Below are positions 2,418 through 22,083 of a DNA stretch of 22,083 nt, one piece after another. Both the position numbers and the translations under genes were made by a program. The DNA is from Chloroflexota bacterium (GTDB lineage Bacteria > Chloroflexota > Anaerolineae > UBA3071). The stretch lies in assembly GCA_014383605.1 (NCBI GenBank), contig JACNHM010000274.1, forward strand, positions 1 to 22,083, given 5' to 3'. The notes under the pieces were generated by a model. The model was not told the DNA's origin and did not search any database. It was given only the letters and a program-made list of their open reading frames with translations. Numbering within the stretch: position 1 is the first letter of the stretch; the number at the start of each line of letters is the position of its first letter.

Positions 2418-5400
2418 ATGGAGCACAGGAGATGGATTTCTGTCCCCTTGGTGGTCAGCATGGTGCTGGCGCTGCTGGCGGTCACCTCAGCGCCTGCCCT
2501 GGCTTCCCCAGATGCTCTTGGTGATCCGCCGACGCCGGTCGCGAGCGGCCCGCCAGCAGCCGCCAACGATGCGCTGTACCCGCCGCGCACAGCGCCCGGC
2601 GCGCCACCCTCTGCGCTATCCCTAATCGCTGATTCATCGCCCACCATCGCCAGGCCCAAATCGTCAATCGTAGACCCGGAATCTCCGTCCGCCGCGCAGA
2701 CCATCATGAGTTGGGAGTACGACCAGATCCGCCCGTCTGTCGCCTACGGCAGCGGGCTGAACGAATACCTGGTCGTCTGGGAGGACCATCACTGGGCATG
2801 GGGCAGCGACTCGGATATCTACGGTCGGCGCGTGAGCACCGCCGGCATTCCGCTCGGAAGCGCGTTCGGCATCTCGTGGGATGGCAACCCCCGAGAGGCG
2901 CCTGACGTGGCCCACAACTGGCCCAACCAGGAGTACCTGGTGGTGTGGGAGTATGAGTACTCCCTCTCGGACCACGATATCTACGCCCGTCGCGTGGACT
3001 ATGACGGGACCCTCATCGGCGGAGAGATCGCCATTGCCACGCCATCCGACTACGACCGCAACCCGGTCATCGCCTATAGCCCCTACCAGGACGGCTACCT
3101 GGTGGTGTGGGAGCGCCGGGTCGGCGACCCCGAATTCGGCCAGGTCGACATCTATGCCCAGAGGCTCGACTGGAACGGGAGCCCGCTGGGCTCTCCCATC
3201 GCGCTGGACACGGGCTCGGCCAGGCAGGAACACCCGGCCATCGCCTACAACTCGGCGTGGGACGAATACCTGGTCATCTGGCAGGACAAGACGGCCGGGA
3301 ACTGGGACATCACAGGCCGGCGGGTGGATGGCGACGGCACGCTGCTCGGCGGCGAATTCGTCATCGAGGCCCCAGGCCACGACCAGACCTGGCCTGACAT
3401 CGCGTACAACAACACCCGGACCGAGTACCTGATCGTCTGGGAGGACCAGATCGGCGGGTCAGGCACCGATTGGGACATCAAGGCCTGGCGGAGGAACATT
3501 GCCGGGGGCGCGGTTGGGTGGTACCTCATCTCTTCATCCGGGAGCAATCGCCGGATGAAACCCGCTGTCACCTACAAGTTCGCGGCCGATGAGTACTTGG
3601 TGACCTACGAGTACGAGTACAGCGCCAGCGACCTGGACCTCTGGCAGAGCCGTTTGCGGTGGGATGGCGTTGCACGTCAGACCGACGCCGTCATTTCCAA
3701 CGCCTGGAACATCCATGAGGCGAGACCAGCAGTCGCCTCGGACGGCGCCTGGTCCAACCTGGTGGTCTGGGAGGACGGCCGCAACCCCAACATGAATCTG
3801 GACCTGTATGCCGACGTGGTCACCGTGTACCAACTCGCCGGCACCGTCTACGAGGGGAACCCGGTCGACATCACCTCACCGCTGCCTGATGTGCCGGTGG
3901 CACTGTACTGCTCCAACGACTCTGGCAGCCTGGGCAACCGGGTGGAAGGGATGACCACCAGCCGGGTGGGGTACTTTGGGCTGATCGTGGCCGGCCCGTG
4001 TGAGTTCTACAACATCCTGGAGACCGACCTCCAGGGCTACGTCTCGGTGGGGGCCGGTTCCGTGGGCGGCACGCGCATCAACGACAACTGGATACAGTAC
4101 ACCCATCCCCTGGCGGGCAAGACGCTGGGTGACAACCGCTTCTGGGATCTGCCGCCAGCCACGGACACTCCCACGCCCACGCCCACTCGCACGGCGACAA
4201 CGACGCCGACCCGCACGCCCACGGCTACACCCAGCCACACGCCGACCCGCACCCCGACACCCACGCCTACTCGCACGCCGACGGCGACGCCGACTCGCAC
4301 GCCGACAGCCACCCCCACCCGCACACCGACCTCCACGCCGACGGCCTCGCCGACTGCGACGCCCACGCGCACCCCCACGGCCACGCCCACCCACACGCCA
4401 ACAGTCACGCCGACCTCCACGCCCACCCACACACCTACAGCCACGCCGACCTCCAGGCCTACCCACACGCCCACGGCCACGCCCACCCCGACGCCCACCC
4501 GCACCCCCACAGCCACGCCGACCCGCACACCCACGGCCACGCCGACCCACACGCCAACGCCCACTCCGACAGAGGTACTGGCTCAGGTGGAGGGCCGGGT
4601 GATCCTGGAACGGCGGGCCAGTAATGCGGGGGCGCAGGCCTGCCTGGACGGGGAGTGCGTCAGCACGGGCGATACCGGGGACTTCGCTTTTCCAGGCGTG
4701 GCGCCCGGCGAGGTCACGGTATCCGTCAGCCGCGCCAGCTATCTGCGCAGTTGGCGCGCCGTGGCGGTGGAGCAGGGGGCGCACATCCTGCCGCCGGTCA
4801 CGCTGCTGGGCGGGGACGTCAACGGGGACGACCACATTGAGCAGTTCGACGCCATGTCCGTGGGGCTGGCCTGGGATGCCACTCCTGGCGACCCGGCCTG
4901 GGACGAACGCTGCGACATCACCACCGATGGCCTGGTCAACATCCTGGACATGGTCGCCGTGCAGTACAACTGGGACCAGACCGCGCCGGGCCCCTGGGGC
5001 GACACGGCGGTCCAGCGACCTCTGGCCTTTTCGGTGCCGCAATGGGCGGACAAGGAGCGACCTGCCCTCCTGCGCCTCAGCCCAAGCCAGGCATCCCTTA
5101 GCGCCCTCGGCGAGACCGTCGACGTAGCTATCCGCATTGAGGACGCCGCCGGCCTCTATGGCGGCCAGGTCCGGCTGGCCTTTGACCCTACCGTTCTCCA
5201 GGTGCTCGACCTCGACACCCGGCCCGAGGCGCCGGGCGTGCAGATCCGGCCTGGCGACTATTTCTTCGATCCCGTCCATCAGTTCGTCGTGGCCAATCGC
5301 GTCGACAACGTCGCCGGCACCATCGACTTCGCCGTGACCCAGTTGCGCCCGGCAGAGGCACGGACCGGGAGCGGTGTGCTGGCCACGGTGAGGTTCGAGG

Positions 5401-5558
5401 CCATCGGCCCGGGCAGCAGCCTGGTCCGCTTCGTCGGCGCACGTCTGGGCGACGATAGCCGGCCCGATCCCCGGCAGATTGAGGCCAACACCCAAGACGC
5501 CCTGGTGACCGTCGGCGGGCCGCTGCGCCTCTATCTGCCGGTGATACGTAGACCCTGA
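2418..5558 (+). CDS. Giant secreted protein 1: seven-repeat propeller, Thr-Pro linker, dockerin- and cohesin-like modules
   Basis: 1046 aa; start chosen at ATG 2418 because AGGAGG lies 7 nt upstream. Residues 1-29 are a signal peptide (cleavage after APALA). Residues about 110-470 hold seven repeats of about 55 residues, each with a core like EYLVVWED followed by DIYGRRV (cores near 115, 172, 228, 283, 336, 392 and 447), consistent with a seven-bladed beta-propeller. Residues about 471-580 are a beta-sandwich-like domain ([19 protein letters not shown]), possibly of the carboxypeptidase-regulatory or SdrD-B type. A Thr-Pro linker covers 583-718. The shared cassette follows: regulatory-like domain 720-800, dockerin-like pair 797-860 ([12 protein letters not shown] and [12 protein letters not shown], Asp at EF-hand positions 1, 5 and 12), cohesin-like domain 882-1035, tail LYLPVIRRP. 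No enzymatic motif was seen, so a binding or structural role is likely. It is the only one of the four lacking the extra cohesin-like domain before the regulatory-like domain; the linker takes its place. Confidence 0.93.
4164..4572 (+). repeat. Thr-Pro-encoding tandem repeat (linker of giant protein 1)
   Basis: About 135 codons made almost entirely of variants of [10 protein letters not shown], encoded by degenerate 6- to 18-bp repeats of the ACGCCGACCCGCACG kind. Such linkers are typically extended, O-glycosylated and protease-resistant in secreted proteins. The strong DNA periodicity makes the length prone to slippage. The reverse strand gives a Val-Gly-rich open frame of 175 codons, which is an artefact of the repeat. 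Confidence 0.9.
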
Positions 5559-5608
5559 GAGTTGGGAGCAAACGAGGCATGGGCGCTCCCTCAAATGGAC
5601 ACTGGCAG

Positions 5609-5676
5609 TATGGTAGATTGGTAAGCTGGTAAAATGGTGTGTGTACCAATCTACCGATCTACCAATATACCGATCT
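5609..5676. repeat. Inverted pair of octamer arrays
   Basis: The left arm (about 5609-5638) has 8-nt-period units of the TGGTAGAT type. The right arm (5645-5676) has the complementary ACCAATCT/ACCGATCT units, also with an 8-nt period. An 11-bp segment (5612-5622) is perfectly complementary to 5645-5655. The arrays would form a hairpin between giant genes 1 and 2. The same octamer family appears as a direct array after gene 2. The rest of the 5559-5706 spacer holds only the ribosome binding site of gene 2. Confidence 0.75.
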
Positions 5677-5706
5677 GATGACTACAAGCTCAGGAGGGGG
5701 AAAACG

Positions 5707-8700
5707 ATGAACCACAAGAGACGAGCGAATTGGCTGGCCGCAGCGGCGATTGGCCTGCTGTTCGGCCTCACGCTGGCCGGGGCCGCCGCCGCAGGCGAGC
5801 CCGCCAGCATGGCGCCGGCCGATGTGCCCGAGCAACTGGCCACCGACCACATCCAGTCGATGACGGCCAACAGCACGCACATCTTCTATACCATCAGCGT
5901 GGGCGGCGAGTTCTGCCCCGCCGATGGCGAGCCGGCCCTCAAGCGCGTGCCGCTGGGCGGCGGCACGGTGCAAACGCTGTATCATAGCTGCACCTTCGAT
6001 CCGTACCAACTGGCCGCCGACGACACCCACGTCTACTTCGCCGACTGGCACGATGACAAGATCAAGCGCATCCCCGTAGCCGGCGGCGCACCCACCGTCG
6101 TCACCAGTGGCAGCTCGCTCATCCTGCACCGGGGACTGGCCCTGGACAGCACGCACGTCTACTGGGGCGACCACGCCGGCATCCGTCGCCTGCCCAAGGC
6201 CGGCGGCGCGGTACAGGTCCTGGCGGTGGACACCCAAAGCGTGAAGCTGGCCGTGGACGGAACCCACGTCTACTGGTCGGTGTGGGGTTCGGGCACCGGC
6301 CAGGTGCGGCGGGTGGCCAAGACCGGCGGCGCGATCCAGAACGTGGTCACCGGCCGGGATGACCCCTACGGCCTGGCGCTGGATGCCACCACCGTCTACT
6401 TCACCGAGTTGGGCACTGGCCAGGTATACCGGGTGGGAAAGGACGGGACCGGCTTGACCGCCTACGTCGCCGCCGACATCTCCCCCTACATGGCCGAAAC
6501 CATCGCCGTGAACGACACCCACGTCTTCTGGACCGACACCACCGGCACCCACACCGGCCGCGTGCGGCGCGTCCTCAAGGGGGGCGGCACGGTGGAGAAC
6601 CTGGCCTTGGGACTGTTCGGTCCGCGTGACGTGACGCTCACCAGCACCCACGTCTACTGGGGTGACTACGACGGCGTATGGCGGCTGCCCATCGCCGCGG
6701 CGGAAGCGAAAGTGGACCTCACCATCTCGGACATCGAGGGGACCCAGGCCATCCAGTGTCTGGACAACACCACCGGGGCCACCGCCTGCGCCGACAACAG
6801 CGTGCCCCTGATCGCCAACAAGCTGACTTACGTGCGCGTCTACCCGGCGGTGGACCTGGCCGACACGGTCAACGTCAACGCCCGGCTCTTTGGGACCAAG
6901 GCGGGGGCACCCTTGCCCGGCTCGCCCATCGCACCCAACGACACCACCGTCTTCGTCAGCACCCTGGGCGCCCAGCGGGAGAGCCCCTCCAGCTCATTCA
7001 ACTTCCAACTTCCCGCGAGCTGGCGCTCCGGCATTATCGTGCTACAAGCGGAGATCAATCCGGGCATGGTGATCCCCGAGTCCAACACGGCCAACAATAT
7101 GTCCTCGTCGGTCACGGTCAGCTTCGCTGCAGCCCGCAACCTGAGCGTGGCCTATGTGCCGGTGAACTACACCTGGTCGGGATGGACAGGAGCCCACACG
7201 GCCAGCGCGGCGACCATGACCGCGGCCGAGGGTTTCCTGCGCACCCTCTTCCCGGTGAGCCAGTTGACCTACTTCGCCTGGCCCTCGGGTTCGGCCTTCA
7301 ACCAGAACATCAACGTCTTCGATAGCGCGCTGATCACCGAGCTCAACAACCGCTATCTGGCCTCCACCAGTCCGCCGGATCAGGTCTTTGGCTGGCTGCC
7401 CAGCGGATCGTGGAACAACGGCCTGTCGGACCCCACCTGGCTCGGCGGAGCGGGCCACGTGTCGGCGGGCGACGAGGTGCTGCAGAACGCGGTCATCGCC
7501 CACGAGATCGGCCACAACCTGGGCCGCCGCCACCCCCCCTGCGCCGATCCCGCCTCCGACTGGCCCTATGGCGTGGGCACCTCTGCCATCCAGGAGGTAG
7601 GCTTCGACGTCTTCAGCCTCACCGCCCACGTGGCCACCAAGCGGGACTGGATGGTGGGCGGCAACTGCGGCAACAGCAGCCTGGACATGTGGATTTCTCC
7701 GTGGAACTGGACCCAGGTCCTCAACGGGACCATTGATTGGCTGGCCCAGGCCCAATGGACGCCGAAACAGCAGGAAGGCCCCATGGCCATCGTCTCCGGG
7801 CAGGTCACGGAAGAGGGCGGCGAGCTGAACCCATTGTGGCTGCTCGACGAGGACTTACCGCCGATGGGCATCCCCGAGGGCAATGCCTACTGCCTCCGCT
7901 TCTTCGATGGGGCGAACCTTCTGCTGCGGGAACTCTGCTTCGACGTGGATATCAGCAACCGGCGCTGGACCGGCGAGTCGACGGTGGGCACCTTTGGCAT
8001 GCGCCTCCCCTTCCCGCCGGATACGGCCCTGGTCCAGCTTTCCCGGGGCATGGAGGTCCTGGACGAGCGCCATGTCAGCGAGAACGTGCCCGAGGTGCAC
8101 GTGATCAGGCCCAATGGCGGCGAGCTGTGGGAAGGCATCCACGTCGTAGAGTGGGAGGCGGGCGACCCGGACATGGAGGGTCTCACCTACAACGTGCTCT
8201 ATAGCCCCGACGGCGGCGAGAGCTGGCAGTCGCTGGCCGCCGGGCTGACGGAGCCCTTCCTGGAAGTGGACTCAGCGCAGATCCCTGGGACCGAGATGGG
8301 CCTGATGCGCGTCCTGGCCACCGACGGCATCTTGACCGGCCGCGACCAGTCGGACGAGCCCTTCCGCGTGGCGCCCCATCCGCCGGCGGTGCACATCCTG
8401 CAGCCGGAGGACGGCGCGGGCTACGAGCCGGGCGAGCAGATCGTCCTCACCGGCTCGGCCTACGACCTGGAAGATGGCCGGCTGGAAGGCGACCGTCTGC
8501 GCTGGTCGATCGAAGGGGTCTACGGCCAGTGGTTCGGAGAGGAGGTCGCCCTGCGCATCGAGGAGCCGGGCGCCTATCTGGTCACGCTGGAGGCCTACGA
8601 CAGCCACCAGATGGTGGGCCAGGACCGCATCACCATCTTCGTCGGCCCCACCCTGTCTATCACGCCACCCTACGTCACCGTCGGCGTGCCACAGACGATC

Positions 8701-10056
8701 ACCGTGGAACTGCGCATCCATGACGTGCTCAGTCTGTACGGCGCCCAGGTGGAGCTGACCTTCGACCCGCAGGTCGTGGAGGTGGTGGATGCCTACGACT
8801 TCCTGCCCGGCGTGCAGATCCTGGAAGGGGACTTCCCTGTACCCGATACCGTGATCCGCAACCAGGTGGACAACCAGCGCGGCACCATCCAGTACGCCGC
8901 CAGCCTGCAGGGGGACAAGCCCGGCGTCAGCGGCTCGGGCGCCCTGGCCCGCATCGTCTTCCACAGCAAAGAGGAGGGGATCAGCACGGTGCGTTTCGTC
9001 CGGGCGATCCTCTCCGATCCCCAGTCGGTGCCCATCCCCTTCCGCACCGAGGATGGCGTGATCGTTGTCCGCCAGGCCGTAGGACTGCTCACCGGCCGGG
9101 TGATCCTGGAACGGCGCACGAGCAACGCCGGCGCGCAGGTCTGCGTGAACGACGGCTGTGCGCCGACCGCCGACGACGGCTCCTATATGCTGGCCGACGT
9201 CCCGCCAGGGCCGCAGACAGTTTTCGTCAGCCGCGAGAGCTACCTGCGCTCCTGGCGCCAGGTGGACGTGCCCGTGGGCCCGCTGGCCCTGCCCGAGGTC
9301 ACGCTGCTGGGCGGCGACGTCAACGGCGATGATCACATCGAACAGTTCGACGCCATGTCTGCCGGCCTGGCCTGGAACACCACCCCCATGGATGCCGAAT
9401 GGGACCGGCGCGCCGACGTCACCGCCGACAGCAATGTCAATATCCTGGACATGGTGGCCATCCAGTTCAACTGGGACCAGGTGGCGCCCGGCCCCTGGGA
9501 CGAGGCAGTGGCCGTGCGGCGGCTGGCGCAATTGAGCCGCCCGCTCACCCAACCAGACCTGGTCACCCGCGTCGTCATCCACCCCAGCCAGGCGAACCTG
9601 AGCGTCACGGGCCAGACCGTGGACCTGGACATCCGCGTGGAACAGGTCACCGACCTCTACGGCGGCCGCGTGCAACTCTCCTTCGACCCCACTGTGCTCC
9701 GGGTGCGCGACGCCGATCCGCGCGGCAGCGCCCCTGGCGTGCAGATCCGGCCTGGCGACTTCCTCGACCCCTTCAACCAGTTCGTGCTGGTGAACCAGGC
9801 GGACAACACGGCCGGCACCATCGACTTCGCCGTGACCCAGTTGCATCCGGCCACGGCCCGCTCCGGCAGCGGCGTCCTGGCCACAGTGACCTTTGAGGCG
9901 CTGGCCCAGGGTAGCAGCGCGGTGCACTTCGTCGACGTCCGGCTGGGCGATGACACCCGCCCCGACCCAGTGGAGATCCCTGCCCAGACACAGGACGGGC
10001 TGGTCACGGTGGGCGGTCAGGTGCGGGTCTACCTGCCGATGATGCTCACGCCGTGA
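5707..10056 (+). CDS. Giant secreted protein 2: beta-propeller, metzincin protease, tandem cohesin/dockerin cassette
   Basis: 1449 aa; ATG 5707 chosen because AGGAGG lies 9 nt upstream, although the frame is open further 5'. Signal peptide 1-29. Residues about 46-335 carry seven repeats with a core like THVYWGD (near 57, 107, 149, 186, 229, 271 and 313), a YWTD-like propeller. Residues 336-475 look like a CARDB-type Ig domain (VDLTISDIEGTQAI, ESNTANN). The protease domain (about 475-690) has the complete zinc motif HEIGHNLGRRH (His599, Glu600, His603, His609) and a candidate Met-turn at RDWMVGG (Met649), making it a likely active metzincin. Ig- or PKD-like domains follow (about 795-890 and 893-980). 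The cassette is: cohesin-like 984-1118, regulatory-like 1125-1200, dockerin-like 1200-1262 ([24 protein letters not shown]), cohesin-like 1290-1437, tail VYLPMMLTP. No propeptide with a cysteine switch was recognised. It probably cleaves extracellular protein or peptide; the substrate is unknown. Confidence 0.93.
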   Translation: MNHKRRANWLAAAAIGLLFGLTLAGAAAAGEPASMAPADVPEQLATDHIQSMTANSTHIFYTISVGGEFCPADGEPALKRVPLGGGTVQTLYHSCTFDPYQLAADDTHVYFADWHDDKIKRIPVAGGAPTVVTSGSSLILHRGLALDSTHVYWGDHAGIRRLPKAGGAVQVLAVDTQSVKLAVDGTHVYWSVWGSGTGQVRRVAKTGGAIQNVVTGRDDPYGLALDATTVYFTELGTGQVYRVGKDGTGLTAYVAADISPYMAETIAVNDTHVFWTDTTGTHTGRVRRVLKGGGTVENLALGLFGPRDVTLTSTHVYWGDYDGVWRLPIAAAEAKVDLTISDIEGTQAIQCLDNTTGATACADNSVPLIANKLTYVRVYPAVDLADTVNVNARLFGTKAGAPLPGSPIAPNDTTVFVSTLGAQRESPSSSFNFQLPASWRSGIIVLQAEINPGMVIPESNTANNMSSSVTVSFAAARNLSVAYVPVNYTWSGWTGAHTASAATMTAAEGFLRTLFPVSQLTYFAWPSGSAFNQNINVFDSALITELNNRYLASTSPPDQVFGWLPSGSWNNGLSDPTWLGGAGHVSAGDEVLQNAVIAHEIGHNLGRRHPPCADPASDWPYGVGTSAIQEVGFDVFSLTAHVATKRDWMVGGNCGNSSLDMWISPWNWTQVLNGTIDWLAQAQWTPKQQEGPMAIVSGQVTEEGGELNPLWLLDEDLPPMGIPEGNAYCLRFFDGANLLLRELCFDVDISNRRWTGESTVGTFGMRLPFPPDTALVQLSRGMEVLDERHVSENVPEVHVIRPNGGELWEGIHVVEWEAGDPDMEGLTYNVLYSPDGGESWQSLAAGLTEPFLEVDSAQIPGTEMGLMRVLATDGILTGRDQSDEPFRVAPHPPAVHILQPEDGAGYEPGEQIVLTGSAYDLEDGRLEGDRLRWSIEGVYGQWFGEEVALRIEEPGAYLVTLEAYDSHQMVGQDRITIFVGPTLSITPPYVTVGVPQTITVELRIHDVLSLYGAQVELTFDPQVVEVVDAYDFLPGVQILEGDFPVPDTVIRNQVDNQRGTIQYAASLQGDKPGVSGSGALARIVFHSKEEGISTVRFVRAILSDPQSVPIPFRTEDGVIVVRQAVGLLTGRVILERRTSNAGAQVCVNDGCAPTADDGSYMLADVPPGPQTVFVSRESYLRSWRQVDVPVGPLALPEVTLLGGDVNGDDHIEQFDAMSAGLAWNTTPMDAEWDRRADVTADSNVNILDMVAIQFNWDQVAPGPWDEAVAVRRLAQLSRPLTQPDLVTRVVIHPSQANLSVTGQTVDLDIRVEQVTDLYGGRVQLSFDPTVLRVRDADPRGSAPGVQIRPGDFLDPFNQFVLVNQADNTAGTIDFAVTQLHPATARSGSGVLATVTFEALAQGSSAVHFVDVRLGDDTRPDPVEIPAQTQDGLVTVGGQVRVYLPMMLTP
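9501..9899. repeat. 399-bp tract identical to 20453-20851 (copy in gene 2)
   Basis: Compared base by base, these 399 bp match the corresponding part of gene 4 without a difference. The tract begins just after the dockerin-like module and covers most of the last cohesin-like domain. The flanks differ at 9500 and 9900 and diverge quickly, including at synonymous sites, which points to recent gene conversion or a segmental copy. Confidence 0.95.
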
Positions 10057-10090
10057 GGCGTGGGAAGGTCGGTCCTGGGTAGGTCGGCAG

Positions 10091-10135
10091 ATTGGTAGAT
10101 TGGTAGATTGGTAGGTTGGTAGGTTGGTAGGTTGG
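10091..10135. repeat. Tandem octamer array ATTGGTAG/GTTGGTAG
   Basis: Three ATTGGTAG units (10091-10114) are followed by two GTTGGTAG units (10115-10130) and a partial unit. They lie 34 bp past the stop codon of gene 2. The family is the same as in the inverted array at 5609-5676. A reading frame through it would give a meaningless TNLPIYQS-type repeat, so it is taken as non-coding. Confidence 0.85.
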
Positions 10136-10139
10136 GACC

Positions 10140-10318
10140 GCTGGCCGAGGCCTTGGGGCCGGGTGCCGCGATGCCTCGGCGGCCTGGCGCGATAGCACCT
10201 GCCGACCCTCTGCCGTGGTGCCTGGTGGCCTTGGTGCCCGGCGCGCCCTGATGCCTCGACCTCGGCGACCGGGCTCGTCGTGCCGCGGCGCTTCGTTGCC
10301 CCGGCGCCTCACTCACCC
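10140..10318. repeat. GC-rich degenerate short repeat (TGCCTCGG-like)
   Basis: The spacer between the octamer array and gene 3 is very GC-rich and contains many loosely spaced variants of TGCCTCGG, GTGCCTGG and GTGCCCGG, often at about 8-nt intervals. No gene or promoter is visible. The periodicity is weak, so this may be a decayed array related in design to the one beside it. Confidence 0.35.
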
Positions 10319-10333
10319 GAAGGAGACAAGCCT

Positions 10334-13300: not shown

Positions 13301-15952
13301 AACTACCTGGGTCTGCACCCGGAAGAGGCGCGGTATGAGGGTTACCACTACCTGTTTCATCAGTGGACCCTCCAGTTGCCGCCCAACGAGGCGGAAACCA
13401 TGCTCTTCCAGGTGCTCCCCACGTCGGTGGGAGTCCACACGCTGGAGCCAACCAGGGTGTCGGCGGGAGGCAGCTCGTACCGGGCCTCCACGCCGCCGGT
13501 CAAGGTCGTCTGCAACCCCAACGGCGTGTGCGACCGGGGCGAGGACTACCGCACCTGTCCCCAGGACTGCGCCACTGGCACTGCCGACGACTATTGCGAC
13601 CTGACCGCCGACGGGCGCATCGACCCAGACTGCACGTACGACGTGGATCCGGACTTCAATCCCGAGGCCGACAGCGACGGCGATGGCGTACGCGACGCCG
13701 ACGATCGCTGCCCCCTCACCAGACGGGGGTCCACGGTCGACCGCGTCGGCTGCTCTTGTGATCAAAAGATCTGCGATGACGGCGATCCGCTCACCGCGGA
13801 CCGCTGCGATGCCCGGACCGCCTCCTGCCGCTACCTGCCCGATGGCGATGGTGACGGGGTGCCCGATGCAGAAGACAACTGCCGGGGCGTCCCCAACCCC
13901 GACCAGGCGGACAGCGACGGCGACGGTTTGGGTGATGCCTGCGAGATCGGTGGCATCGGTAGCGATACTACGTTGGCCCCCGGAGTGTACCATATCCCGG
14001 CGCCAGAAGGACAGGCAGCCATCACCATCGGCAGCTCCGGCGTGGTACTGGACTGCAACGGCGCGCTGCTGATGGGCACCGGTACGGGGTACGGCATCCA
14101 CGTGCCCGAAGGGGTCAACGATGTCGTCATTCGTAACTGCACGGTGCGTGGCTACCGGTATGGCATCACCGTCCGTGGCTCCAGCGGCGATGAGATCGTA
14201 CACAATACCCTGGAGTTCAACGAGTATGGCGTCGTCCTCGACCGGTCATCCCGTGTGCAACTCGTGGAGAACCTGTTCAGCGGCAATGGGCGGGGCGGCG
14301 TCTACCTGGAGGGTTCCGAGGCCAACGCAGTGCTGGATAACACGATCGTGGGAAGCGGCAAGGCGGGGATCTTCGTGCACAGCTCACCCGGCAACGAGAT
14401 CTCAGCCAACTACGTCTGCGGCCAGGCCGGCTCCGACATCTATGTCTACGAATCGGAGGGCAGCGGCGGCGACAACACCTGTGGCACGGCCGAGGGTTGG
14501 AACGACGAGGGCACGCGCGGATGCAGCTACGAATGTCAGGACGCTGTGCTACACGTGTCGCCGGCCTGGAGCAGCGCGCTGGTGTCGGACACGGTGGTGG
14601 TCGAATTGCGGCTGGTGGATGTGGAAAACCTCTACGCCGCGCAGATAGAGCTGGCCTTCGATCCCGCGGTGCTCGAGGTGATCGACGCCTATGACTTCCA
14701 GCCCGGCGTGCAGATCGAGGAAGGGGAGTTCCCCGTGCCGGATACCGTCATCCGCAACCAGGTGGACAACCAGCGCGGCGCCATCCAGTACGCCGTCAGC
14801 CTGCAGGGCGACAAGTCCGGGGTCAACGGCTCGGGCGTTCTGGCCCGTATCCTCTTCCACGGCAAGGCGGAGGGTGTCAGCCCGCTCCATTTCACCCGCG
14901 CGATCCTCTCCGATCCGCAGTCGCTGGAGATCCCGACCCGTGTGGTGGACGGCGTGGTGGCGGTGCACGGGGCGGCGGGGGTCATCAGTGGCCGCGTCGT
15001 GCTGGAACGCCGCGCCAGCAACGCTGGTGCGCAAGTCTGCGTCGGCGACCACTGCACGAACAGCGCCGCGGATGGCTCTTACGTGCTGGCCGATGTCCCG
15101 CCCGGGCTGCAGACTGTCTTCGTCCGGCGCGAGAGTTACCTGACCACCTTTCGCCAGGTAAATGTGCCCCCAGAGCCGGTGGGCCTGCCCGAGGTCACGC
15201 TGCTGGGCGGCGACATCAACCAGGACGACCGCATCGAGCAGTTCGACGCCATGTCGGCCGGCCTGGCCTGGAACGCCACGTCCATGGACCCCCAATGGGA
15301 TCGCCGCGCCGACATCACCGACGACGGCAACGTGAACGTCCTGGACATGGTGGCCATCCAGTTCAACTGGGATAGCCTGGCGCCTGGCCCCTGGGGCGAG
15401 GCGGTGCTGCTGCGCCAGGCCGCTGATCTCGCCCGGCCGCCGGTATCCGAGGACGCGGCCAGCCGGGTGGTGCTCAGCCCCGGCCTGGCAGCTCCCACCG
15501 GAGCAGGCCAGACCGTGGACCTGGAGATTCGGGTGGAGGAGGTGACCGACCTCTACGGCGGGCGCATCCAGCTCTCGTTCGACCCCACCGTGCTGCAGGT
15601 GGTGGACGCCGATCCCAGCGACGGCGCCCCCGGCGTGCAGATCCGGCCCGGCGACTTCCTCGATCCCTTCCACCAGTTCGTGCTGGTCAATCGGGCCGAC
15701 AACAGCGCGGGCACCATTGACTTCGCCGTCACGCAACTGCATCCGGCCACGGCCCGCTCCGGCAGCGGCGTCCTGGCCACGGTGACCTTCGAAGTCGTGG
15801 GCCAGTCCAGCAGCGCTGTGCATCTCGTGGGCGTGCGCCTGGGCGACGACACCCGCCCCGATCCGCTGGAGATTCCCACCCAGACCCGGGATGCGCTGGT
15901 CACAGAGGGCGGGGGAGTGCGGATCTACCTGCCGGTCACGCTCGTGCCGTAG
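10334..15952 (+). CDS. Giant secreted protein 3: three beta-helices, transglutaminase-like domain, cohesin/dockerin cassette
   Basis: 1872 aa; ATG 10334 chosen because GAAGGAG lies 8 nt upstream. Signal peptide 1-28. Residues about 30-228 and 229-480 are two NosD-type parallel beta-helices (PbH1 repeats such as GNTVRNCTI, GIYLYYANNNTF), each closed by a Cys-rich cap. Residues about 480-710 are Cys-rich and unassigned. A transglutaminase-like core follows with a plausible catalytic triad: Cys724 in TGTCVDYA, His753 in GDGHGYNLVRFPG and Asp770 in HYVDTV. Another Cys-rich stretch (about 790-895) precedes a DUF11/CARDB-like domain (about 940-1055) and thrombospondin type 3 calcium-binding repeats (near 1114 and 1170-1206). 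A third beta-helix with the same cap covers about 1208-1402. The cassette is: cohesin-like 1405-1545, regulatory-like 1550-1622, dockerin-like 1624-1690 (DINQDDRIEQFD, DITDDGNVNVLD), cohesin-like 1712-1862, tail IYLPVTLVP. Beta-helices suggest polysaccharide binding or lysis, but no catalytic residues for that were identified. The transglutaminase-like domain could cross-link or hydrolyse amides; which is unknown. Confidence 0.93.
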   Translation: MRTPMTWIVIPLLAVVAAVLSAGAATASGTTCNSCADCTTKINSGLYDTVTLSVNIVGHSGGCIGFHGVNNVVFDCNGLQIDGDDAAIDPDRGVGIFSATGNTVRNCTITDFSDGIYLYYANNNTFTNNTAQSNTVDGIRLENSHSNTISSNTASYNGDDGISLTSSNNTAINGNTVCQNVGLDFNLSSSSGNSGDNNSCDKPDGWNDAGTSGCTSSCPTTAKCTSCSDCSAKLNGSYETVMLASNIMQHAGTCIVFGASNVVFDGGGYVIDGDDLGSDSGITMSGRSGNTVRNCTVQDFQHGISLYNSSNNTVEKNTTKSNSSNGIYLSGSASNHLYTNQARDNGTGINLSSSASNQLYNNDVTANKSVGIRLDLSDSNQISFNDVHDNDHSQPAWGLYLYSSDSNTIHNNMLEDNYQGIKLDNCTSNTINLNTICSQQGTDVSMVGGSTGNSGDNNTCEDTYNWNDTGKKGCTYRCYLCSDGKKNGDEKGIDCGGTYCPPCSLCATGAKYAPTDTICTQSWPTSQGPDIDLNSENASCSLVEVCAKDLDYLVEDALLCCEYEDYTTKLSGNREKGKEAACSYAQGQAYSNDFRHKVTPTTLKQCLGHYLIRSFGAEAVYMQGYFYGELCCHGHDECPSACREWHVEPPAYEMGIWYACAENTCPKPDFKMGGHVCEYTDAWIFGTYGNDGYWNSDTDFHANNDSFGEPPAHATINRLSTGTCVDYAVALATALRKVGYAKQDVLGVDGDGHGYNLVRFPGEVKWHYVDTVSNRGDEVFGGSGFTSPDHHCCKGTPNSCSSMTTEKECTQGGCTWSAGSCTGTPSESACGVFTTGSSCQAAAGCSWQFCVWYDYCRSLDDGCYNDSYDEDTDNCPSNSNIYGCESVATASSLAAVTPLAPPLETSPNPWALPAAPEQQDGECTELHPCVRREVVEVQEPPPPVDLEVHKYVSREEIILGDAVEIAIVVRNNEDVPVQAVVQETFVPGVNYLGLHPEEARYEGYHYLFHQWTLQLPPNEAETMLFQVLPTSVGVHTLEPTRVSAGGSSYRASTPPVKVVCNPNGVCDRGEDYRTCPQDCATGTADDYCDLTADGRIDPDCTYDVDPDFNPEADSDGDGVRDADDRCPLTRRGSTVDRVGCSCDQKICDDGDPLTADRCDARTASCRYLPDGDGDGVPDAEDNCRGVPNPDQADSDGDGLGDACEIGGIGSDTTLAPGVYHIPAPEGQAAITIGSSGVVLDCNGALLMGTGTGYGIHVPEGVNDVVIRNCTVRGYRYGITVRGSSGDEIVHNTLEFNEYGVVLDRSSRVQLVENLFSGNGRGGVYLEGSEANAVLDNTIVGSGKAGIFVHSSPGNEISANYVCGQAGSDIYVYESEGSGGDNTCGTAEGWNDEGTRGCSYECQDAVLHVSPAWSSALVSDTVVVELRLVDVENLYAAQIELAFDPAVLEVIDAYDFQPGVQIEEGEFPVPDTVIRNQVDNQRGAIQYAVSLQGDKSGVNGSGVLARILFHGKAEGVSPLHFTRAILSDPQSLEIPTRVVDGVVAVHGAAGVISGRVVLERRASNAGAQVCVGDHCTNSAADGSYVLADVPPGLQTVFVRRESYLTTFRQVNVPPEPVGLPEVTLLGGDINQDDRIEQFDAMSAGLAWNATSMDPQWDRRADITDDGNVNVLDMVAIQFNWDSLAPGPWGEAVLLRQAADLARPPVSEDAASRVVLSPGLAAPTGAGQTVDLEIRVEEVTDLYGGRIQLSFDPTVLQVVDADPSDGAPGVQIRPGDFLDPFHQFVLVNRADNSAGTIDFAVTQLHPATARSGSGVLATVTFEVVGQSSSAVHLVGVRLGDDTRPDPLEIPTQTRDALVTEGGGVRIYLPVTLVP

Positions 15953-15966
15953 GGGCGGGCACCCAG

Positions 15967-15995
15967 ACCCTAAAGGGCTTACAGACCTTTAGGGT
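15967..15995. repeat. Perfect hairpin between genes 3 and 4
   Basis: ACCCTAAAGG (15967-15976) pairs perfectly with CCTTTAGGGT (15986-15995) around a 9-nt loop. No T-run follows, so it is not a standard terminator. The palindrome resembles dispersed elements with an ACCTTTAGGGT core known to me from several bacterial genomes. It ends 7 nt before the ribosome binding site of gene 4 and may shape translation or message stability. Confidence 0.65.
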
Positions 15996-16019
15996 TTGCA
16001 CAGGGGAGGTATGGTAACG

Positions 16020-19000
16020 ATGCAGAGAAAGCTTGTACCTTGCCACATCATCGTCCTGACGCTGCTTCTGCTGGCGCTGCTGCCTGGCCCGTCGGGGGCC
16101 GGTCAGCGCGCCGCGCCCGAACTGCAGGGGCAGATCACCTTCGAGGAGACCATCCCGCAGCCGGAGATGGTACGCAGCCAGTACTGCAACAACCCGGCAA
16201 CCAACAAGGGCGTCGAGTTCCTCAACCACGGCGGCCGCATCTTCACCCCCTCCGTGACCACGGCCAGCCCCACCCACGCGCTCACCAACCAGTTCTCTGG
16301 CGATGAGTTCGGGGAGTTCAAGACGGTGCAGATTCGCTTCACGACGGGGCAGTCGGCGGTGAGCGTGCAGGCGGGGCTCAACCGCGCCTACAGCTTCGGC
16401 GTGGTGGCGCACATGTGGGCCTATAGCACCGATACGCCCGGCTCTGGCACGCCCGTGGCCTTGGACAACATCCAACTGGGCGTCGGCCCGACCGAGGTGC
16501 TGCACGAGCTCTCCGTCACCTCGGCCAGCGCCAACATCCGCAGCGTGGAAATCTGGTTCAGCGGCCCGGCCGCCGGCAACGCGACCCACGAGGTAATCGA
16601 CGACCTGACCTACAGCACCATCGGGCCGCCGTGCATCACCGACACCGCCGCGCCCAGCGTCCAGATCACCAAGCCCGCGGCGGATGGCACGACGCAACAG
16701 ACGTCCTACCAGGAACTAGCCTTCAAGGCCAGCGATAGCCAGACCGGCATCGCCAAGATCCAGGTCCTGTTCTTGAGTGGCTCGGGGCAGGAGCTGGGCT
16801 CGTTCTACGTCTGCGGGGGCACCGGGCCACTGTGCCTCTACGACGTGGTGCCTACCCAGGCGAGCTACGACTTCTACACGGTCATGCCCAACGACACGGC
16901 GAAGGTCCGCGTCAAGGCCTGGGACTTTGCCGACCACGTAGGCCAGGCCGACCGCACGATCAACGTGGTGGCGATCGGCTACTTCAACCTTTGGGTCCAG
17001 GCCATGGAGATCACTCAGGCCACCCAGCCCTGGCTGCCGACCAACGCGCAGCCCACGCTGGCCGGACCCACCCCTCCCAGCCACCAGTACCCGGCGGCGC
17101 CCACGTCCGTGCCCCTGGTGGCCAACCGCACCACCGTGGTGCGGCTGTACGCGGGCGTGGCCGGTACGACTGGCAACCAGCAGGTGGACAAGGTACGGGC
17201 CCAGTTGCGCTGCTTCTCCGACGCCGCGTACACGACGCCCTGCGCTGGCTCGCAGGTCATCGACGCCCAGAACCAGCCGCCCAACATCCTGAAAGAGATC
17301 ACCGTTCGGCCGGCCGACAGCCTGGATACCAAGCGCAGGGATACCCGGCTGAGCTGGAACTTCGTGCTGCCCAGTAGCTGGACCGGAACGGGCACCATCC
17401 ACCTGGAGGCCGTCCTGCAGGCTCCGACGGGCCTGCAGGAGTGTGCGGGATGCGTCGACGCGGCCAACCGCTTCCGCATCTGGGACGTGCAGTTCCACAC
17501 CGTGCCCGCCCTGACCAGCCTGGTGCACCTGGTCTCGGTGCAGCGCAAGCTGGGCAACCAGACCTTCAACGCCACGCAGTACGCACTGGACAGCGCCTCG
17601 GACCTTATTTCCCGCCACTATCCCATCGACGAAGCCACCGTGTTTACCGCGGCCAGCGCCACGTGGACCTACGACGACTGCGGCGACACCTGCGATCCCG
17701 ACCCGCAGAAGAACCTGGGCGCGCGCTGCAACAGTGCCTTCAATGATCTGAAGAACGACTACCCGAACAAGGCCAACAAGCAGGCCGTCTACGGGCTGAT
17801 GGACACCGGTTTCCCCTGCGCTGGCCTCGGTGGCGGCGGCTACTCCTACGGCGCCAATCCCTCCGCCCTGGGCCACGAGGTAGGCCATGCCATGGGGCTA
17901 CTGCACGCCGGCCCACCGCCAGGTCACGGCGTGTGCAACGCCGAATGCCAGAACAACTGGTGCGACACGGATTGGCCCAACAACCACGGCACCACGGGCG
18001 CCTTCGGCTTCGACATCATCGCCATGAAGGTCATCCCCGGTGGGCAGACGCAATGCCTGACCGCTGGCGTCTGCGATAACGGGGTCAACGAGGATAACGA
18101 CACGGTAGGCGGCTGCGCCATCCCCGATGATGACTGCGCTGGCCAGCCCGACACCGACCCGCCCGCCGATTTCACCGATCACCCGCACGACATCATGTCC
18201 TACGGCCCCTGCTCCGAGTGGATCTCGCCGCGCAACTGGATCCGCATCTACAATGCCTTCACGGGCAGCAACCTGCCCTATCCCAAGAGCACGACCATCT
18301 GGGCTGTGGAGCCCGCGGTGGCAGGGGATGGGGGAACGGATGAGCAGATTGCAGAGAAAGCTGCGCTGCCCGCGCCGCAGCTCGTGCCGGGCCAGAGGGG
18401 CAGTTATCTTCTCCTACGCGGACAGGAGCTGTCGGAGGGCGAGTGGAGCCTTCCTCCGGCCTATGAGATGGAGCTGCCCTCCGGGACCTCCGACCACGAG
18501 GGACAGGGCGAGCACAGCGTGGCGCTGTTGGGCCGGACCGGGCAGGAGCTGCTCGTACGCCGGTTCGAGGTCCCGCTGTTGCACGCTGACCTGAGCGAGC
18601 CTCCCGACGCGCTGGCCGTGCCCCTCAGCTTCGGCGAACTCCTGCCGCTGCCCGAAGGCGTGGTGACGGTGCAGTTTCGCCGCGGCGACGAGGTGCTGGC
18701 CGAGCGGCAGCGCAGCGAACAGCACCCCAGCGTGCAGATCATCTCCCCCACCGCCGACGGCTTCCAGGGCCAGCCGGACGAGCCGTTGATCATCTGGAGC
18801 GGCGAGGATGGCGACGGCGATCCGCTGCACACCATGATCCAGTACAGCCCCGCGCCTGGTCCAGACGGCGAGCGGGAGTGGCAGACGCTGGCGAGCGACT
18901 GGACAGAGCAGGTCTTCCCCGTGGACTTGGGCGGGCTGCCCGGCGGCGAGGAGGCCATGGTGCGCGTGCTGGCCAGCGATGGGTTCAACACGGCCATGGC

Positions 19001-21011
19001 CACCTCGCCCGTGTTCGCTGTCCAGCGCAAATCGCCGGTGGCCCGCATCCTGTCCCCCGCGACCGAGACCGTAATGGAGGAAGGCGACCGGCTGGTGCTC
19101 GTGGGGACGGCGTCGGACCTGGAGGATGGCCTGCTCGACCCCGAAGCGCTGCACTGGTTCGCTGGCCGCTACATGCCCTTGGGCACGGGACGCCATCTGG
19201 ACGTGGACATCCTGCCGCCGGGACAATACCGGGTGAGCCTCATGGCCGAAGACGGCCAGGGTATGGTGGGACTGGACAGCATCTCCGTGACCGTCCTGGA
19301 CCGGCCCAATTCCCAGCCCACTGCCAATGCCGGGCCGGACCGCACGGCGGGGCTCAATGCCACCGTCCGGCTCGATGGCAACTCATCAGAGGACCCGGAC
19401 GGCGATCCGCTCGCCTTCGCCTGGTCCGTGGCCGTCCAGCCACCCGGCAGCCAGGTCTCGCTCGCCGGCGCCGACACGCCCTTCCCCACGTTCTCCGCCA
19501 ACACCGAAGGCGACTACGAGATCGAGTTGCTGGTGCACGATGGCCAGGTGGGCAGCCTGCCCGACCGCGTCACCGTGCAAGTCGGCGGTCCCGCCCAGCC
19601 GCGGCTCTTCGTCGCGCCGGTAGAGAGCACCCTGCCCGTCTCGGCGACGGCGACGGTCGAGTTGCGCGTGGACAACATCGAGAATCTCTATGCCGCCCAG
19701 GTGGAGCTGGTCTTCAACCCGGAGGTCGTGCAAGTGGTGGACGCCTACGACTTCCAGCCCGGTGTGCAGATCGAGGAGGGCGACTTCCCCGTGCCCGACA
19801 CCGTCATCCGCAACCAGGCCGATAACACGCAGGGCACCATCCACTACGCGGTCAGCCTGCAGGGCGACAAGCCCGGCGTCAGCGGATCGGGCACGCTGGC
19901 CCGCATCACCTTCCATGGCCTCCGCCCGGGTGAGAGCCCGCTGGCCTTTACCGGCCTGGTGCTCTCCGACCCCCGGTCGGTGCCCATCGAGGCCGCGCCG
20001 GAGGGCGGTGTGCTGCTCGTCCGGGAGGCTACGACCACACTGATCGGCCGGGTGATCCTGGAGCGGCGGGCCAGCAATGCCGGCGCCGTGGTCTGCGTTG
20101 ACGAGCGCTGCAGCCCGGCCAGCCCAGATGGCTCGTTCATCATCCCCGGCCTGGAGCCTGGCCCGCACACCGTGGCCGTTGGCCGCGAGAGCTACCTGCG
20201 CTCCTGGCGCGAGGTCCATCTGCCGGAGGGTGTGCTCCTCCTGCCGGAGGTCACCCTGCTCGGTGGCGACGTCAACGGTGATGATCACATCGAGCAGTTC
20301 GACGCCATATCCACCGGCCTGGCCTGGGACACCACCCCCATGGACCCCGAATGGGACCGGCGCGCCGACATCACCGACGACAGCACCGTCAACATCCTGG
20401 ACATGGTCGCGGTGCAGTTCAACTGGGACCATGTGGCGCCCGGCCCCTGGGGCGAGGCAGTGGCCGTGCGGCGGCTGGCGCAATTGAGCCGCCCGCTCAC
20501 CCAACCAGACCTGGTCACCCGCGTCGTCATCCACCCCAGCCAGGCGAACCTGAGCGTCACGGGCCAGACCGTGGACCTGGACATCCGCGTGGAACAGGTC
20601 ACCGACCTCTACGGCGGCCGCGTGCAACTCTCCTTCGACCCCACTGTGCTCCGGGTGCGCGACGCCGATCCGCGCGGCAGCGCCCCTGGCGTGCAGATCC
20701 GGCCTGGCGACTTCCTCGACCCCTTCAACCAGTTCGTGCTGGTGAACCAGGCGGACAACACGGCCGGCACCATCGACTTCGCCGTGACCCAGTTGCATCC
20801 GGCCACGGCCCGCTCCGGCAGCGGCGTCCTGGCCACAGTGACCTTTGAGGCACTGGCCAAGGGCAGCAGCGCGGTGCACTTCGTGGACGTGCGGCTGGGC
20901 GACGACACCCGCCCCGACCCGGTGGAGATCCCCGCCCAGACCCAGGATGCGCTCGTGACGGTAGGTGGGGAGCTGCGGGTTTACCTGCCCGTGGTTCTGC
21001 GCAGCAGATAG
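16020..21011 (+). CDS. Giant secreted protein 4: metzincin protease with PKD and cohesin/dockerin cassette
   Basis: 1663 aa. ATG 16020 is preferred over ATG 16011 because the GGGGAGG box (16003-16009) is 10 nt from the former and only 1 nt from the latter. Signal peptide 1-28. Residues about 40-205 are a beta-sandwich domain with no family recognised, possibly carbohydrate-binding (DNIQLGVG, RSVEIWFSGP). An Ig-like domain covers 214-315, then a domain related to the pre-protease domain of gene 2 (322-490; LWVQAMEITQATQ, VPLVANRTTVVRLYAG). The protease has HEVGHAMGLLH (His619, Glu620, His623, His629) and a clear Met-turn DIMSYG (Met726), separated by a Cys/Asp-rich insert (GVCDNGVNEDNDTVGGC). 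Ig-like domains and a PKD domain (about 1100-1190; TANAGPDRTA, SSEDPDGDPL) follow. The cassette is: cohesin-like 1194-1335, regulatory-like 1341-1412, dockerin-like 1415-1480 ([24 protein letters not shown]), cohesin-like 1502-1650, tail VYLPVVLRSR. The protease core and the domain before it are paralogous to gene 2, but the N-terminal targeting domain differs. Confidence 0.93.
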   Translation: MQRKLVPCHIIVLTLLLLALLPGPSGAGQRAAPELQGQITFEETIPQPEMVRSQYCNNPATNKGVEFLNHGGRIFTPSVTTASPTHALTNQFSGDEFGEFKTVQIRFTTGQSAVSVQAGLNRAYSFGVVAHMWAYSTDTPGSGTPVALDNIQLGVGPTEVLHELSVTSASANIRSVEIWFSGPAAGNATHEVIDDLTYSTIGPPCITDTAAPSVQITKPAADGTTQQTSYQELAFKASDSQTGIAKIQVLFLSGSGQELGSFYVCGGTGPLCLYDVVPTQASYDFYTVMPNDTAKVRVKAWDFADHVGQADRTINVVAIGYFNLWVQAMEITQATQPWLPTNAQPTLAGPTPPSHQYPAAPTSVPLVANRTTVVRLYAGVAGTTGNQQVDKVRAQLRCFSDAAYTTPCAGSQVIDAQNQPPNILKEITVRPADSLDTKRRDTRLSWNFVLPSSWTGTGTIHLEAVLQAPTGLQECAGCVDAANRFRIWDVQFHTVPALTSLVHLVSVQRKLGNQTFNATQYALDSASDLISRHYPIDEATVFTAASATWTYDDCGDTCDPDPQKNLGARCNSAFNDLKNDYPNKANKQAVYGLMDTGFPCAGLGGGGYSYGANPSALGHEVGHAMGLLHAGPPPGHGVCNAECQNNWCDTDWPNNHGTTGAFGFDIIAMKVIPGGQTQCLTAGVCDNGVNEDNDTVGGCAIPDDDCAGQPDTDPPADFTDHPHDIMSYGPCSEWISPRNWIRIYNAFTGSNLPYPKSTTIWAVEPAVAGDGGTDEQIAEKAALPAPQLVPGQRGSYLLLRGQELSEGEWSLPPAYEMELPSGTSDHEGQGEHSVALLGRTGQELLVRRFEVPLLHADLSEPPDALAVPLSFGELLPLPEGVVTVQFRRGDEVLAERQRSEQHPSVQIISPTADGFQGQPDEPLIIWSGEDGDGDPLHTMIQYSPAPGPDGEREWQTLASDWTEQVFPVDLGGLPGGEEAMVRVLASDGFNTAMATSPVFAVQRKSPVARILSPATETVMEEGDRLVLVGTASDLEDGLLDPEALHWFAGRYMPLGTGRHLDVDILPPGQYRVSLMAEDGQGMVGLDSISVTVLDRPNSQPTANAGPDRTAGLNATVRLDGNSSEDPDGDPLAFAWSVAVQPPGSQVSLAGADTPFPTFSANTEGDYEIELLVHDGQVGSLPDRVTVQVGGPAQPRLFVAPVESTLPVSATATVELRVDNIENLYAAQVELVFNPEVVQVVDAYDFQPGVQIEEGDFPVPDTVIRNQADNTQGTIHYAVSLQGDKPGVSGSGTLARITFHGLRPGESPLAFTGLVLSDPRSVPIEAAPEGGVLLVREATTTLIGRVILERRASNAGAVVCVDERCSPASPDGSFIIPGLEPGPHTVAVGRESYLRSWREVHLPEGVLLLPEVTLLGGDVNGDDHIEQFDAISTGLAWDTTPMDPEWDRRADITDDSTVNILDMVAVQFNWDHVAPGPWGEAVAVRRLAQLSRPLTQPDLVTRVVIHPSQANLSVTGQTVDLDIRVEQVTDLYGGRVQLSFDPTVLRVRDADPRGSAPGVQIRPGDFLDPFNQFVLVNQADNTAGTIDFAVTQLHPATARSGSGVLATVTFEALAKGSSAVHFVDVRLGDDTRPDPVEIPAQTQDALVTVGGELRVYLPVVLRSR
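20453..20851. repeat. 399-bp tract identical to 9501-9899 (copy in gene 4)
   Basis: This is the second copy of the identical tract in the last cohesin-like domain, offset from the first by 10952 bp. Immediately outside it the genes differ (20452 and 20852), and differences then recur every few bases. Confidence 0.95.
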
Positions 21012-21553: not shown

Positions 21554-21856
21554 TTATTGTATCACAGGGTATTCGCTTTCTACGATGTCTTGATGGGCGA
21601 CACCTAAGTTGTGGAAGATGGGCAGCTCCCACGCCTCGTAGAGCGTCAGGTACACATCCCGGGCCAGCTTCTCCTCTTCCCGCATGTACAGCAGGCCTTC
21701 GATCTCGGCCTCGCTCAGCTCGCCTGACGGGGGCTGGCCGCCAGGGGCGTTGCCGTTCCCCGGCCCTTGCGCTCCAGCGACGGTGCTGACCGCCATTACC
21801 CCAACGAGGGCCATAGACGCAGCCAACACACCGATACGTTTCCAGTTACTCTTCAT
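21554..21856 (-). pseudogene. Truncated second copy of the DUF2202 gene
   Basis: From ATG 21856 the frame encodes the same first 81 residues as the intact DUF2202 protein (signal peptide, spacer and the EEEKLARDVY helix), then 19 unrelated residues (HNLGVAHQDIVES and so on) to a stop at 21554. The SEQQHM metal motif and the other helices are missing, so no ferritin-like fold can form. The ribosome binding site and start are intact, so a short secreted peptide could still be made. Confidence 0.8.
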
Positions 21857-22083
21857 GGTATTCTGTATTCTCCTTTTTCGGTGGTCTCCCCCTTTCGTGT
21901 TGATGTCCTTTCTTCACCGCAGAGCGCACGGAGCACGCAGAGATTCTTTGGTTTTCTCAGCGTGCTCGGCGGTCTCCGCGGTTGAAAACCAGTCGAAACT
22001 GGCGTCAACACGATTGAGGGGGACTACCCCTTTTTCAACTTGATTGTTAACGATCATCGTTCGCAGGAGAGCCCTTGATTGTC
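21612..22083. repeat. Right copy of the direct repeat (DUF2202 5' region), interrupted by a MITE
   Basis: Positions 21612-21879 equal 1171-1438 without a mismatch, and 22029-22083 equal 1431-1485 (with the duplicated CCTTTTTC shared). The copy continues past the window edge, so whether it includes the operator and promoter cannot be seen. Perfect identity indicates a very recent duplication, or an assembly error at a repeat. Confidence 0.93.
21872..22036. mobile_element. 149-bp MITE (21880-22028) with 8-bp target duplication
   Basis: Comparison with the uninterrupted left copy shows an insertion of 149 bp flanked by CCTTTTTC on both sides (21872-21879 and 22029-22036); this octamer occurs once in the left copy. 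The ends form imperfect terminal inverted repeats of about 26 bp (GGTGGTCTCC at the left, GGTAGTCCCC at the right on the opposite strand; about 20 of 26 match, both with a CGTGTTGA core). The middle is a second, larger imperfect palindrome (about 21915-21987) of the CACCGCAGAG...GCACGCAGAGA type. It has no coding capacity and must have been moved by a transposase in trans. It sits between the DUF2202 ribosome binding site and any upstream promoter. Confidence 0.85.

Follow-up and report, generated by a model that had tools for sequence, protein, structure and literature searches.

A shared cohesin and X-dockerin cassette with a candidate tail signal on four tandem exoproteins of a Chloroflexota bacterium

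What does a protein gain when a dockerin and a cohesin, the plug and the socket of known assemblies, sit on the same chain? This question is raised by a stretch of 22,083 nucleotides from a Chloroflexota bacterium (contig JACNHM010000274.1 of assembly GCA_014383605.1), the whole of which is called the window below. Four long open reading frames (ORFs), p1 to p4, lie there in tandem on the + strand and end in one common C-terminal cassette. We propose tentatively, as a quite possible reading, that this cassette serves as an adaptor, non-cellulosomal and type II-like, with the order [Coh1]-X-dockerin-(flexible linker)-Coh2-YLP tail, which would make each exoprotein both cargo and acceptor in a surface assembly. 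An original prediction from the sequence had noticed the cassette on four exoproteins and interpreted it as an extracellular polymer built without a scaffoldin; the observation was confirmed and the interpretation partly supported. New are an apparently self-matching pair on one chain, a predicted contact between Coh2 and the X-dockerin dyad (X-Doc), and the tail. The four genes, with protein lengths in amino acids (aa), are as follows.

2418..5558, + strand: p1 gene, 1046 aa; signal peptide, propeller-like repeats, PT-rich linker, X, dockerin, Coh2, tail, no Coh1 (ORF list, Pfam; repeats and signal peptide by eye)
5641..10056, + strand: p2 gene, 1471 aa; propeller-like repeats, metzincin motif, Ig-like, Coh1-X-dockerin-Coh2, tail (ORF list, Pfam, NCBIfam, motif search)
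10280..15952, + strand: p3 gene, 1890 aa; beta-helices, transglutaminase-like core, TSP3-like, beta-helix, Coh1-X-dockerin-Coh2, tail (ORF list, Pfam, NCBIfam, motif search)
15996..21011, + strand: p4 gene, 1671 aa; Big_7 (sub-threshold), metzincin motif, PKD, Coh1-X-dockerin-Coh2, tail (ORF list, Pfam, motif search)

A signal-peptide-like stretch opens each protein, and the likely starts, chosen by eye from these stretches and from ribosome-binding sites, are the ATG codons at 2418 (p1), 5707 (p2), 10334 (p3) and 16020 (p4). The Cohesin family (PF00963, cut-off 24.1 bits) was exceeded by all four proteins, with whole-protein scores of 27.2, 59.1, 62.1 and 56.2 for p1 to p4; Pfam placed one cohesin stretch in p1 and two each in p2, p3 and p4, where an upstream copy (Coh1) is added and the two flank the dockerin as predicted. 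Every chain thus carries a cohesin together with a dockerin, the latter sub-threshold in Pfam, with both F-hand calcium loops intact in all four. CarboxypepD_reg was found in three of the four proteins, below its cut-off. Over the common C-terminal part (327 columns) the protein identity to p2 was 61% for p1, 74% for p3 and 86% for p4, so the kinship of the cassettes is not chance; a chance origin was ruled out by the Pfam matches, these identities and the homolog search together. In the linker/Coh2 region, p2 and p4 share 399 bases of DNA without a difference (9501-9899 = 20453-20851), in cassettes that are 86% identical overall when aligned, which indicates recent copying or gene conversion between the two genes. 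The modules were located as follows.

8647..9069, + strand: Coh1 of p2 (Pfam, AlphaFold2 (AF2) model with fold search, PDB sequence search)
14543..14965, + strand: Coh1 of p3 (Pfam, tree)
19599..20021, + strand: Coh1 of p4 (Pfam, tree)
4578..4799, + strand: X-like (CarboxypepD_reg-type) domain of p1 (alignment to the other cassettes; without Pfam match in p1 itself)
9079..9300, + strand: X-like domain of p2 (Pfam, fold)
14975..15196, + strand: X-like domain of p3 (Pfam)
20031..20252, + strand: X-like domain of p4 (Pfam)
4800..4997, + strand: dockerin of p1 with two calcium loops (Pfam, loop pattern)
9301..9498, + strand: dockerin of p2 with two calcium loops (Pfam, conservation, fold, loop pattern)
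15197..15394, + strand: dockerin of p3 with two calcium loops (Pfam, loop pattern)
20253..20450, + strand: dockerin of p4 with two calcium loops (Pfam, loop pattern)
5061..5513, + strand: Coh2 of p1, its sole cohesin (Pfam, tree)
9562..10011, + strand: Coh2 of p2 (Pfam, AF2, fold, PDB sequence search)
15458..15907, + strand: Coh2 of p3 (Pfam, tree)
20514..20963, + strand: Coh2 of p4 (Pfam, tree)
5514..5555, + strand: C-terminal YLP tail of p1 (pattern search)
10012..10053, + strand: C-terminal YLP tail of p2 (pattern search, AF2 local confidence)
15908..15949, + strand: C-terminal YLP tail of p3 (pattern search)
20964..21008, + strand: C-terminal YLP tail of p4 (pattern search)

The folds on which the original prediction depended were found: AF2 models compared by Foldseek and VIA-align recovered the cohesin jelly-roll and the X-dockerin folds. 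The X-Doc dyad showed both fold and sequence kinship to type II X-dockerins, and the part that had been taken for a regulatory domain (CarboxypepD_reg) was reassigned, by fold and sequence match, as the counterpart of an X module. In the PDB sequence search the best solved relatives of Coh1, Coh2 and X-Doc all came from type II pairs; sequence places the cohesins nearer type II than type I, weakly so for Coh1, and by fold Coh2 is tied between the two. In alignments of up to 50 rows the dockerin was the best-conserved module (mean top-residue frequency 0.70), with both calcium loops near-invariant, and its second helix was kept better than its first (0.81 vs 0.57), which fits a one-sided binding mode. 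Coh1 and Coh2 are 37-43% identical in the window, and that they are recent duplicates of each other was rejected, since a tree of 27 and 50 rows splits them on either side of one branch (support 89/87, bootstrap not settled). Plug-socket complementarity within the cassette is plausible from sequence and models.

The p2 model of X-Doc, linker and Coh2 reached a predicted template-modelling score (pTM) of 0.86, although linker residues 143-158 had a predicted local distance difference test (pLDDT) under 50. Independently placed domains would give a pTM of 0.47-0.54, and to reach 0.86 the parts must be placed relative to each other with an error of about 2-3 A; Coh2 is thus confidently placed in the model, and we take its contact with X-Doc as predicted. 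A longer p2 model including Coh1 gave 0.70, which fits a Coh1 or a Coh2 that is partly floating. The linker between Coh1 and X has 6 residues in 57 of 86 cases, and that between dockerin and Coh2 ranges from 10 to 46. From these lengths, Coh1 should hardly be able to reach its own dockerin, and Coh2 may.

The same docked placement was predicted inside a single chain, and it might mean that Coh2 folds back over the 21-residue linker onto the dockerin beside it on the chain, so that X-Doc and Coh2 would form a compact end unit instead of a polymer. Loss of calcium, force or a competing dockerin would open this latch, and Coh1, on its 6-residue linker to X, would stay an outward socket. We consider such a closed end unit rather unlikely. 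Protein searches (76 + 105 proteins, 180 distinct) gave 71 proteins with Coh-X-Doc-Coh and 37 with X-Doc-Coh, so that X-Doc and Coh2 often share a chain, and the linker between them measures 21 aa in p1 to p4 alike (median over 122 cases, 23), both agreeable to closure. Yet 15 of the 122 linkers have 10-15 aa, where closure may be impossible; X-Doc occurs by itself in 8 of the 180, some perhaps cut by contig ends, and once next to a full cassette gene; and drawing the set with the cassette as query favours complete cassettes. The other architectures were 20 single cohesin, 9 Coh-Coh-X-Doc, 7 Doc-Coh, 6 Coh-Doc and 22 others, all counted with purpose-built profiles in a set where many homologs are contig fragments. 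Among 14 homologs from named organisms, 13 were Chloroflexota kin and one was a Methanosarcinales archaeon, and the Pfam content of the homologs included VWA, NosD, LamG, SdrD_B-like, FG-GAP and PKD.

Could the four proteins instead form a head-to-tail or branched polymer by themselves, as was originally proposed? Every chain has plug and socket of the same type by sequence, and seven cohesins against four dockerins would permit branching. However, related genomes show an ordinary division of labour, with proteins that carry dockerins, others with several cohesins, and probable wall anchors. At one locus (L001), a 402-aa protein (signal peptide, X-Doc-Coh2, tail) stands directly ahead of a full cassette protein; at another (L142), from which a homolog passes Dockerin_1 with 29.9, an X-Doc-only protein lies 16 bases upstream of a full cassette gene; a third (L143) encodes at 3414-5219 a protein with two cohesin and three LysM stretches; and genome G001 encodes a protein with five cohesin stretches. 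Closure within the chain would, moreover, terminate the growing polymer. A scaffoldin-free polymer from these proteins alone is improbable in our judgement, and an undescribed one goes beyond the evidence, since chains with both modules are already in print in the passages cited below.

Cohesin-LysM proteins were seen in L143 (3414-5219), P0154 and P0157 and are possible wall-anchoring scaffoldins. A cellulosome-like cluster of another cohesin kind was observed in G001 (contig C250, L102, 8352-19998), with a five-cohesin protein ending in FLPL, small cohesin proteins, a cohesin protein that has a TP-rich stretch and a hydrophobic C-terminus, and a protein of 1669 aa whose end weakly resembles a dockerin. 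Its ORF at 13591-14823, called cohesin-bearing, matched no Pfam family and scored 42.5 bits in the genome search and 46 with our own profile. In a cassette scan of one genome per species we found 15 loci, of which the best was in a Chloroflexi metagenome-assembled genome (L001, 59%) and several, with weak matches, in Bacillus or Gottfriedia. Within the class, the cassette profile matched in 72 of 396 genomes at 1e-20, with at most four candidates scored per genome; cohesin/dockerin matches numbered 15/21 in G155, 17/5 in G001 and 7/12 in G118.

The shared YLP tail was missing from the original prediction. All four proteins end, past the last cohesin strand, in R-[VIL]-YLP-x..., a part with low pLDDT in the p2 model. 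On contigs of five genomes (G001, G003, G005, G011 and G025) picked for cohesin, dockerin or cassette matches, the strict tail pattern was found in 19 of 450 ORFs of at least 150 aa, compared with 47 of 22,500 random internal 20-mers. By a crude hydrophobicity test, 15 of the 19 have a signal-peptide-like start vs 85 of 431 tail-less ORFs; of the remaining four, the one in L104 begins 85 bases from the end of its contig and the other three begin at the border of their locus. Exported proteins in which no cohesin was detected can bear the tail as well, for instance two peptidases of the C13 type and a DUF6345 protein, and among nine of the 19 scanned with Pfam, five had no cohesin at E<=0.01 (two in L089, one each in L090, L113 and L115). 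A class sample covered up to 20 kb of the first contig in each of 40 genomes: the tail stood in 6 of 368 ORFs, about 1.2 being expected from background, and one of the six is probably the end of a membrane helix. Where the genome had cassette matches, only 1 of 182 ORFs had the tail, whose spread over the class is thus uneven. None of 84 ORFs in the Bacillus/Gottfriedia loci had it. A literature search for the YLP tail turned up nothing, which does not show that the tail is unpublished. We regard the tail as a candidate surface signal. YLP/FLP tails were also noticed on exported proteins in L172, L177 and L198.

These counts bear on another alternative, in which the cassette is a rigid spacer that mainly presents the tail to a sorting or anchoring machinery, and cohesin and dockerin serve stability rather than assembly. 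By a loose pattern, 58 of 71 Coh-X-Doc-Coh proteins have the tail, as do 23 of 37 with X-Doc-Coh; of 9 Coh-Coh-X-Doc and 8 X-Doc proteins none does. The proteins that bear it without detected cohesin also agree with such a role. A spacer, though, would need neither two near-invariant calcium loops nor a dockerin as the best-conserved module, and the class-wide rarity of the tail, about background in genomes with cassette matches, does not fit either. We hold this alternative to be distinctly improbable.

Several results weigh against the adaptor that we favour. Dockerin_1 (PF00404) was matched in all four proteins with 20.4, 20.4, 16.6 and 14.5 bits (p1 to p4), under its cut-off of 22.9; this cut-off is a score limit and not a structural feature, and we thus keep the claim to a dockerin by fold and loops, not by Pfam membership. 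The PDB matches of Coh1 were weak (best E 0.004), and the fold of Coh2 is no nearer to type II (3l8q_B, 16.2) than to type I or other cohesins (4uyq_A, 17.0; 1ohz_A, 16.9), where differences under 1 are ties. The predicted docking of Coh2 on X-Doc is read from pTM as its sole basis, and having been modelled within one chain it can equally be read as a closed monomer. The whole cassette matched the Clostridium thermocellum scaffoldin with a root-mean-square deviation as large as 8.9-10.5, so that the angle between Coh1 and X differs or is flexible. Anchors of the LysM type are known from other, related genomes only, and of the 396 class genomes only three (G001, G155 and G118) show a near full-length cassette among the matches listed.

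If the adaptor reading is right, X-Doc would make each exoprotein a cargo, and its cohesins would make it an acceptor. The proteins would be exported, and calcium, on which binding presumably depends, would then fold the dockerin. The X-Doc face centred on the conserved second helix would plug into a cohesin of the family, with Coh2 as the best-supported partner, and the other cohesin would be left free for further dockerin proteins, presumably on other chains. The outcome may be a short mixed surface assembly of peptidase-like, beta-helix/transglutaminase-like and propeller-like proteins acting on presumed substrates. Wall-anchored cohesins of the LysM kind, of which the organism would need its own, and/or the YLP tail might retain it at the surface.

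The heads of the four proteins were said to be unrelated, which does not hold throughout: ahead of the cassette, residues 384-1001 of p2 align with 368-1100 of p4 at 25% identity (E 1.6e-37). Three motifs were located in the heads.

7501..7533, + strand: metzincin zinc motif HEIGHNLGRRH of p2 (motif search)
17874..17906, + strand: metzincin zinc motif HEVGHAMGLLH of p4 (motif search)
12503..12505, + strand: candidate catalytic Cys of the p3 transglutaminase-like core (Pfam; assigned by eye)

For the two predicted metzincins, HExxHxxGxxH is exact in p2 and p4, with a Met-turn pattern in p4 only, but Peptidase_M66 stayed below its cut-off of 20.6 (p2 17.4, p4 13.0). The p4 head also has a sub-threshold Big_7 and a PKD domain. 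In p3, beta-helix families scored well above cut-off, and the predicted transglutaminase-like domain matched Transglut_core with Cys, His and Asp in order by eye, though sub-threshold (16.5 vs 23). The propellers rest on EYLVVWED...DIYxRR units repeated in p1 and read by eye, and on weak propeller-like profile matches (SinM) in p2. Glycoside hydrolase families were absent from p1-p4 at E<=1 in the Pfam and NCBIfam lists, as predicted, and a cellulosome was rejected on this ground; Pfam also gave no cellulose-binding-module scaffoldin among the four.

Other features of the window were seen beside the genes. Short repeats of the GGTAGATTGGTAG type, partly inverted, were noticed by eye at 5580-5650 in the p1/p2 gap and at 10090-10135 in the p2/p3 gap. 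A 12-base repeat codes the PT-rich linker of p1 (4135-4626), with long, probably spurious ORFs opposite. A DUF2202 gene at 705-1415 (- strand) is repeated in part at the right end of the window (21554-21856, - strand): 1171-1438 = 21612-21879 and 1439-1485 = 22037-22083 are exact, with 157 bases between the two exact parts in the second copy, whose 3' part differs. It is either a real duplication or an assembly-end effect.

The locus offers four closely related natural test proteins with plug and socket on one chain, and a clear prediction, namely that Coh2 binds X-Doc and Coh1 binds between chains only. Should the reading hold, the locus would reveal how exported peptidases are arranged on the cell surface in some Chloroflexota, and would supply an assembling tag made of one component. 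Exported Chloroflexota proteins bear the YLP tail whether or not a cohesin was detected in them, and it is a candidate for a surface signal not yet described. We might speculate further on a self-complementary type II-like unit fitted to varied Chloroflexota exoproteins, giving a calcium-dependent surface network with an intra-chain latch as switch and an unnamed C-terminal surface signal ([YF]LP[LVM]..[RK]), a doubtful extension.

Among known systems, non-cellulosomal cohesin- and dockerin-like modules, the general kind to which the window cassette belongs, were reportedly treated by Peer et al. in 2009. The end of the C. thermocellum scaffoldin CipA (PDB 3kcp, 4fl4) has the same Coh-X-Doc order and folds as the window cassette, and its X-Doc is related in sequence (E 4.6e-12). 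The window differs in its preceding domains, in the extra Coh2 and tail behind, and in cohesins whose sequences, like that of the dockerin, come nearest to type II, and which are so possibly self-complementary. The closest solved relative of the window X-Doc is the X-dockerin (PDB 4wi0, 4u3s) of the Acetivibrio cellulolyticus scaffoldin, named ScaA in PDB titles. That scaffoldin joins a catalytic domain and cohesins on one chain (GH9, a glycoside hydrolase (GH), and seven cohesins in the passage cited, PMC12997984), like the window proteins, and is a cellulosomal primary scaffoldin, unlike them. The role of many archaeal cohesin and dockerin genes outside cellulose degraders is described as open in PMC9012536, whose cited section reports proteins of anaerobic methanotrophic archaea (ANME) with one dockerin and up to five cohesins, non-cellulosomal and with a proposed surface role. 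They resemble the window proteins in this, and are scaffoldin-like and S-layer- or transporter-linked, with no X-Doc-Coh2-tail unit in section 32 of that paper. Both modules on one chain, implied to be without precedent in the original prediction, thus occur in C. thermocellum, in ANME and, as far as the passage in PMC12997984 goes, in one GH31 protein of Clostridium perfringens, where glycoside hydrolases of multi-enzyme complexes bear cohesin and dockerin. All four window proteins have both, as a complex of the C. perfringens type requires. There, according to that passage, cohesins and dockerins likewise sit on active proteins, which are glycoside hydrolases with single cohesins, whereas here they sit on peptidase-like and other proteins, of predicted activity, with a conserved Coh-X-Doc-Coh.
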